Assembly: GCA_020725465.1 (NCBI GenBank)
Contig: DYEY01000068.1
Span: 62,001 to 126,000, forward strand
Direction: 5' to 3'
DNA from: Dethiobacter sp.
GTDB lineage: Bacteria > Bacillota > Dethiobacteria > Dethiobacterales > Dethiobacteraceae
DNA length: 64,000 nt
Part shown: positions 52,392-54,128 of the stretch, piece by piece
How positions within the stretch are numbered: the first letter of the stretch is position 1
How the letters are laid out: every line of letters starts with the position of its first letter
Made by a program: the position numbers and the translations under genes
The notes under the pieces: model-generated
Database searches by the model: none
Told to the model about the DNA's origin: nothing
The model's input: only the letters and a program-made list of their open reading frames with translations

Positions 52392-52838
52392 TTAAATGCT
52401 TTCCAGAATTCGTGCAATCTCCGATTGCACAGCACCGGCGCATCAGGCGCCGGCGGGGTTTTTGGTGAGGCATTGCCCGCCATCTCCGGCACCGGTGGCC
52501 TTCTTCACTTCAGCCGGAGTTCGGGCGCCTTGCAGTACCGACCGGCGGATATCACCGCGGGTGACACCGGAACAATAGCAGATCAAAACATCATCGCCGG
52601 TCTCCTTGAACCAGACCGGGACGCTTACAGAGTGGCGGCTGAACTGGGTCTGCCTGTTTTCTCCGAAGTAAACTATGGGGCAATGAGACGACCGGCACAG
52701 GAAGAAGCTCTCACTGCGGGCAAGCTGCCGGTAGGCGGGCAGGACCAATGCCGGGACGGTCTCCGCCGGTACTTTCCTGCCCACCGCCCCGCAGCGGGGG
52801 CACCGGAGATCGTCCCGGGTTGAATTGTTACAATACAA
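52392..52838 (-). CDS. CopZ-type [2Fe-2S]/zinc metallochaperone, probable selenoprotein
   Basis: 148 aa with a TGA read as selenocysteine at codon 132 (52443-52445). The N-terminal zinc domain of the CopZ type has CPRCG and CRSSHCPIVYFGE. The C-terminal Fer2/BFD-like domain has CYCSGVTRGDI and, 30-odd residues on, GGQCLTKNPAGA. The frame then reads TGA-TGC and 15 more codons (AGAVQSEIARILESI) to TAA. Relatives, as I recall them, carry Cys-Cys at this point and a similar tail. A perfect 8-bp hairpin follows at SECIS distance. TTG at 52838 with GAGGTG is the likely start. The copper-binding HMA domain of Archaeoglobus CopZ is absent. Confidence 0.8.
52412..52430 (-). promoter_or_regulatory. Candidate bacterial SECIS element of the CopZ-like gene
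   Basis: Minus-strand GTGCAATC-GGA-GATTGCAC: a perfect 8-bp stem with a G-first loop. The loop begins 23 nt after the U of the UGA, inside the 16-37 nt window known for bacterial SECIS elements. It lies within the extended coding frame. Confidence 0.75.
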
Positions 52839-52869
52839 CGCACCCACCTCTTACAAACGGTCAATTTTT

Positions 52870-53903: not shown

Positions 53904-54128
53904 ATGTCAGAAGTAATTATTTACACCAAGACCGGCTGCCCTTACTGCGAGGCGGCCATGGCGGATTTTAAAAAACAGGGTGTCGCTTTTAGGGAAATAA
54001 ACGTAAGCCAGGACCCGGCGGCTAAAAAGCTGATCAAAGAGCAGTACAACGCCGGCAAGGTGCCGGTGATTGTCCGTGACGGCAAGCTGACGGAAATCGG
54101 CTACCGGGGCGGCGGCTGAGGAATCTAG
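53904..54128 (+). CDS. Uxx-star family glutaredoxin-like protein, probable selenoprotein
   Basis: 74 aa with TGA at codon 72 (54117-54119) read as selenocysteine. Thioredoxin fold with the redox motif TGCPYC at residues 10-15, cis-Pro in GKVPVIVRDG, and a glycine-rich end EIGYRGGG. The frame then reads TGA-GGA-ATC-TAG: Sec-Gly-Ile-stop, the C-terminal pattern that names the Uxx-star glutaredoxin-like family. A GC hairpin follows at SECIS distance. AAGGAGG lies 7 nt before the ATG. Role is probably thiol/selenol redox chemistry with the divergently encoded MBL and CopZ-like proteins (inference). Confidence 0.82.

Follow-up and report, generated by a model that had tools for sequence, protein, structure and literature searches.

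A divergent CopZ-family [2Fe-2S] protein of Dethiobacter sp. as a predicted selenoprotein with UGA at codon 132

Results

A minus-strand gene of Dethiobacter sp. very probably encodes a CopZ-family [2Fe-2S] selenoprotein, in which the UGA at codon 132 is read as selenocysteine (Sec). The gene lies in a stretch of 64,000 nucleotides (contig DYEY01000068.1, positions 62,001 to 126,000; hereafter the window). A preliminary description of the window had proposed a probable Sec at this TGA, and the proposal is strongly supported by the analysis reported here, since the alignment of relatives, the fit of the downstream hairpin to the bacterial SECIS model, the sel genes of the genome and the TGA- and Cys-type orthologues all favour it.

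The gene (52392..52838, minus strand) comprises 148 codons when read through the TGA, from a TTG start at 52838, preceded at 5 nt by a ribosome-binding site recognised by eye (GAGGTGG), to a TAA at 52394-52392; translation might instead start at the in-frame GTG at 52847. A single TGA (52445-52443, residue 132) interrupts the frame, followed by TGC (Cys133) and 15 further sense codons before the TAA, exactly as previously claimed. These 16 codons form the read-through tail CAGAVQSEIARILESI (52395..52442). The terminator-like hairpin, with 11 pairs and a TTCGTTTGCT tail, is indeed located behind the TAA rather than behind the TGA (52393-52368, minus strand). The TGA itself occupies the loop of a GC-rich palindrome of 7 pairs (CCGGCGC-CTGAT-GCGCCGG; 52435..52453, minus strand), which has no T-run on the minus strand and sits directly upstream of the SECIS hairpin without overlapping it.

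The product is probably a cytoplasmic protein of 148 residues with two Pfam domains, both above cut-off: zf_CopZ (1.2e-16) and Fer2_BFD (9.3e-9). The zinc-binding zf_CopZ domain spans residues 12-71 (52626..52805, minus strand), and its Cys13, Cys16, Cys48 and Cys53 are invariant in our alignment (A1). The Fer2_BFD [2Fe-2S] domain spans residues 85-123 (52470..52586, minus strand), contains C87-Y-C89 and C123 and extends to the U132-C133 pair. Among solved structures, the N-terminal domain of Archaeoglobus fulgidus CopZ (2hu9) is the best sequence match (1.1e-14; 1.4e-29 with the family profile), and both the sequence and the profile alignments place its Cys118-Cys119 opposite U132-C133. An AlphaFold model of the read-through protein, built with 18 sequences, has a mean pLDDT of 92.4, with the part after the TGA modelled as a confident C-terminal helix (134-147); comparison of its fold with 2hu9 gave an E value of 1.5e-9 and TM scores of 0.77/0.87. 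The protein had been called a CopZ-type metallochaperone. This is appropriate for the part that corresponds to the N-terminal portion of CopZ, but Pfam finds no match to the HMA (Atx1-like) Cu(I)-transfer domain in the window protein, so that a direct, CopZ-like transfer of Cu(I) need not be assumed. A separate HMA protein is encoded elsewhere on the contig.

The candidate SECIS hairpin (52411..52431, minus strand) has 8 Watson-Crick pairs (GTGCAATC/GATTGCAC), a closing U-G pair and a GGA loop (52422-52420). The stem begins 15 nt and the loop 23 nt after the U of the TGA, which puts the loop 20 nt past the TGA codon; the perfect 8-bp stem and GGA loop noted earlier are therefore present, but the 23 nt given there for the start of the hairpin is the distance to the loop. 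We compared the hairpin with the bSECIS constraints quoted in PMC13188914, i.e., a loop of 3-9 nt with G in its first two positions, a stem of 4-16 bp, a distance of 16-37 nt from the TGA and a minimum free energy (MFE) of at most -7.5 kcal/mol. The window hairpin fits in loop (GGA), stem (8-9 bp), spacing (20 nt) and energy (-11.4 kcal/mol when the 36 nt from the TGA are folded, -9.7 kcal/mol isolated). An Rfam search at the locus returned nothing credible.

Taken alone, the hairpin is weak evidence for Sec. Model-fitting hairpins at -7.5 kcal/mol or better follow 107 of the 1755 TGAs in the window (6%), and for 47 TGAs (2.7%) the hairpin is no less stable than the candidate SECIS. With such a hairpin at about 1 in 37 TGAs, we rejected the structure as proof by itself. 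It is nevertheless not explained by the protein sequence: when the 16 tail codons were recoded synonymously 20,000 times, only 2 trials gave 8 Watson-Crick pairs at a permitted position.

Relatives were gathered in two ways, by searching 200 relatives for the family and by running a profile against 398 genomes of the phylum. An initial contig scan with the window protein as sole query had given no relatives; a scan with an alignment as query returned 11 relatives, all without TGA at the site, using a search pattern that demanded Cys there. The full collection contains 21 further distinct phylum members with TGA at exactly the codon of the window gene, in the motif NPxGxUC (22 with the window protein), and 29 distinct relatives with Cys-Cys, encoded by TGC or TGT at codon 132. 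The Cys-Cys pair is invariant in the latter and the tail aligns; homologues that end at the TGA position with no conserved Cys or tail were looked for and not seen among these relatives. All 21 other TGA members share a hairpin that is nearly letter-for-letter the same (GTGCAATC-GGT-GATTGC), the loop being GGA in the window gene versus GGU in nearly all others. Its codons are kept among the 22 TGA members (GTG in 22, CAA in 20, TCG in 22, GTG in 20, ATT in 22), while the codons on either side vary. By contrast, the Cys members use other codons at this place and have no such hairpin (mean energy -2.2 kcal/mol, compared to -8.3 kcal/mol for TGA members). The genomes differ accordingly: selA is above cut-off in 21/21 of the other TGA genomes, while 8 of 34 Cys genomes lack a selA match and 1 of 34 has only a partial one. 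As far as sequence can be, we consider this comparative evidence, with 22 aligned TGA members and a conserved hairpin, decisive for Sec.

The genome has the machinery that Sec decoding would use. All four genes looked for (selA, selB, selC and selD) were found: selA, selB and selD are contiguous on contig C70, each above its curated cut-off, and the same contig carries a tRNA-Sec with anticodon TCA (UCA; 72.2 bits versus a gathering score of 47). A genome without selB and tRNA-Sec would have spoken against Sec, and both are present here. The selD of this genome (G000:C70:66588) has an in-frame TGA of its own, in the context GGA-TGA-GCC and followed by a model-fitting hairpin (locus L041, around 1500-1560), which we read as a Sec-type SelD and an internal positive control.

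Two readings without Sec have to be weighed against these data. In one, the TGA acts as an ordinary stop after NPAGA, and the open codons and hairpin behind it arise by chance or as a structure of the transcript end. A 134-codon ORF from a GTG to the TGA does exist, and the 2.7% of window TGAs followed by hairpins as stable show that chance can provide one. Chance does not readily account for the invariant Cys-Cys and aligned tail of the Cys relatives, for the retention of TGA plus the same hairpin nucleotides in 21 other members, or for a terminator placed behind the TAA, and we regard an ordinary stop as very improbable. In the other, a point mutation or sequencing error has turned TGC or TGT of a Cys-type gene into TGA, leaving a pseudogene. 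Only a single base separates these codons, the genome is a draft, and the nearest sampled family relatives are at most 39% identical. An error would not bring a matching hairpin, however, and the one found here is absent from Cys members and nearly letter-for-letter that of the TGA members; this makes chance error an unlikely source of the TGA, and we give this reading even less credence than a plain stop. Together, the exchange of Sec and Cys, the TGA-linked hairpin and the Sec genes leave little room for either.

With Sec as the preferred reading, the hairpin in the coding sequence, its loop 20 nt downstream, would recruit SelB and Sec-tRNA-Sec, and the ribosome would decode the UGA at codon 132 as selenocysteine. 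The resulting protein would have a zinc domain and a BFD-type [2Fe-2S] domain in which the closing Cys-Cys pair has become Sec-Cys. The Sec would then lie at or beside the cluster, serving either in cluster binding or as part of a redox- or metal-active selenol/thiol pair, and the pair or the Sec itself may be used to reduce or pass on soft metal(loid) ions (Cu, Hg, As).

A refinement of this reading, to which we give about even chances, keeps Sec decoding and makes the Sec a free selenol beside the ligand Cys133, acting in thiol/selenol redox chemistry or as a site for a soft metal(loid) ion. The preliminary description had placed the Sec at a cluster-ligand position, but either residue of the U-C pair may be the one that binds the cluster. 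Sec is usually found in redox roles. The motif is U-C, and by the alignment only one of the A. fulgidus residues Cys118 and Cys119 should join the CYC pair and Cys123 in a four-Cys site. Cys119, not Cys118, is probably the cluster ligand in A. fulgidus CopZ, in which case Sec132 would be a non-ligand. That some related genes with the same motif lie in ars or mer-like neighbourhoods fits as well; on the other hand, both columns of the Cys-Cys pair are equally conserved. A text search of the literature for Cys118/Cys119 of CopZ gave nothing relevant.

Discussion

The preliminary description left it unclear whether a Sec-containing CopZ had been described. Such a protein kind is already catalogued: a "(2Fe-2S)-binding protein (copper chaperone CopZ family)" form 1 is listed in Table 1 of PMC13188914, with motif GxUC and WP_245779778.1, and in the table of PMC9312934. 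Both reviews credit Zhang and Gladyshev 2008; the CopZ name is absent from the main text of that GOS paper. The 2026 review identifies form 2 (CU) with the Csac_0668 family. The window protein has the characters of form 1, i.e., zf_CopZ and Fer2_BFD domains and a TGA in G-x-U-C at the place where the CC pair has its first Cys. It is not of the CU type, as its N-terminus (MYCNNST) has Cys and no TGA, and its sole TGA is in GAUC; it scores 111.9 bits against NF045877 (CopZ_Nterm_CU, "Csac_0668 family 2Fe-2S cluster-binding (seleno)protein"), for which the curated cut-off is 190. In phylogenetic trees it forms a long branch outside the form-1 clade (98-99% support), although a tree test did not reject a single clade with form 1 (lnL difference 7.96, p-AU 0.26). 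In the class, of which 98 genomes were covered, the only other GxUC member is in G022. Judged from these sequence features, the window protein is best described as a divergent new form-1 (GxUC) member.

Several related genes deserve mention in their own right. The G022 relative (L030 1450-1926, plus strand; G022:C1:2139683-2140138) contains two in-frame TGAs. The second is at the GKUC site; the first is N-terminal (MNQIKLUGNS), with a 6-bp hairpin (CTTTCC-GGT-GGAAAG, -4.2 kcal/mol) whose loop lies 24 nt after the TGA. This gene possibly encodes a two-Sec CopZ-like protein; the 2026 review gives one Sec per CopZ-family form. A form-2-like gene of G180 (L012 1270-1758, minus strand) has an N-terminal in-frame TGA (CSDU). 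No selA match was found in this genome, a single contig, and no fitting hairpin follows the CSDU TGA, which may therefore act as a stop, with the gene starting later. In G002 (contig C11; L022 1450-1791, plus strand), a zf_CopZ relative carries both an early TAG and a TGA within its zinc domain and is a decayed copy or an assembly error; a form-2 gene is present elsewhere in the same genome. Finally, the window itself contains a small glutaredoxin-like gene (53904-54119, plus strand) of the Uxx-star family (NF041212, 81 bits versus a cut-off of 66), a family that includes known selenoproteins; this gene has Cys at the site (TKTGCPYC).

The window gene lies between an upstream metallo-beta-lactamase-fold gene and a downstream dnaE, neighbours that say little about function, and the genes immediately around it include no recognised metal-resistance gene. 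Of 13 genomes examined (L094-L106), about 6 have form-1 genes beside arsenic- or mercury-type genes: arsD, arsR, arsA and an ArsP-type permease gene in G219; an arsR-type gene, an ArsP-type permease gene and an arsenate-reductase-like gene in G256; ArsP-type permease genes in G429; MerR-type regulators in G321 (above the MerR cut-off) and G100 (just below); and a MerB-domain gene with a SaoP-like ABC permease gene in G185. Form-1 genes of the g61 genus, among others, have no such arsenic/mercury neighbours. These neighbourhoods in other genomes suggest a role of form 1 with soft metal(loid) ions. Copper is a candidate because the Fe-S part of the A. fulgidus protein is reported to reduce Cu(II) (PMC7558416). 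More speculatively, the GxUC CopZ-like proteins would be detoxification proteins for arsenic or mercury, not copper, in which a selenol beside the [2Fe-2S] cluster reduces the ion or passes it on, with the window protein as a separate branch whose Sec was possibly acquired independently or transferred, the SECIS being the same; we consider this combined scenario rather doubtful.

The analysis supports, with independent sequence data, a selenoprotein family that the reviews give only as predicted. The divergent window protein falls under the NCBIfam (seleno)protein cut-off, so annotation may end it at the TGA, and the conserved SECIS (GTGCAATC-GGN-GATTGC) is an aid for finding further members. 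Should the arsenic/mercury neighbourhoods reflect function, they would point to a testable role of selenium in metal(loid) handling.

Among the closest known systems, form 1 shares the CopZ-like Fer2_BFD family and the exact motif G-x-U-C at the same place with the window protein, and the 21 TGA homologues fit it as well. The five aligned form-1 members are 37-42% identical to the window protein and differ from it by a two-residue insertion with Cys-Cys (RQCC, KKCC) that it lacks. The Csac_0668 family (NF045877, form 2) is homologous over nearly the whole length, but has its Sec in the CU motif, N-terminal in the relatives seen, and Cys-Cys at the Sec site of the window protein. Bacterioferritin-associated ferredoxin (Bfd) has a similar [2Fe-2S] module over about 40 residues; it has no zinc domain, and the match ends before the UC/CC pair. 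The N-terminal domain of A. fulgidus CopZ (2hu9) has the same two-module fold (TM 0.77/0.87), but there the pair is Cys-Cys, and the archaeal protein is described as a fusion with a copper-chaperone part like CopZ, whereas the window protein would have Sec-Cys and has no HMA domain.
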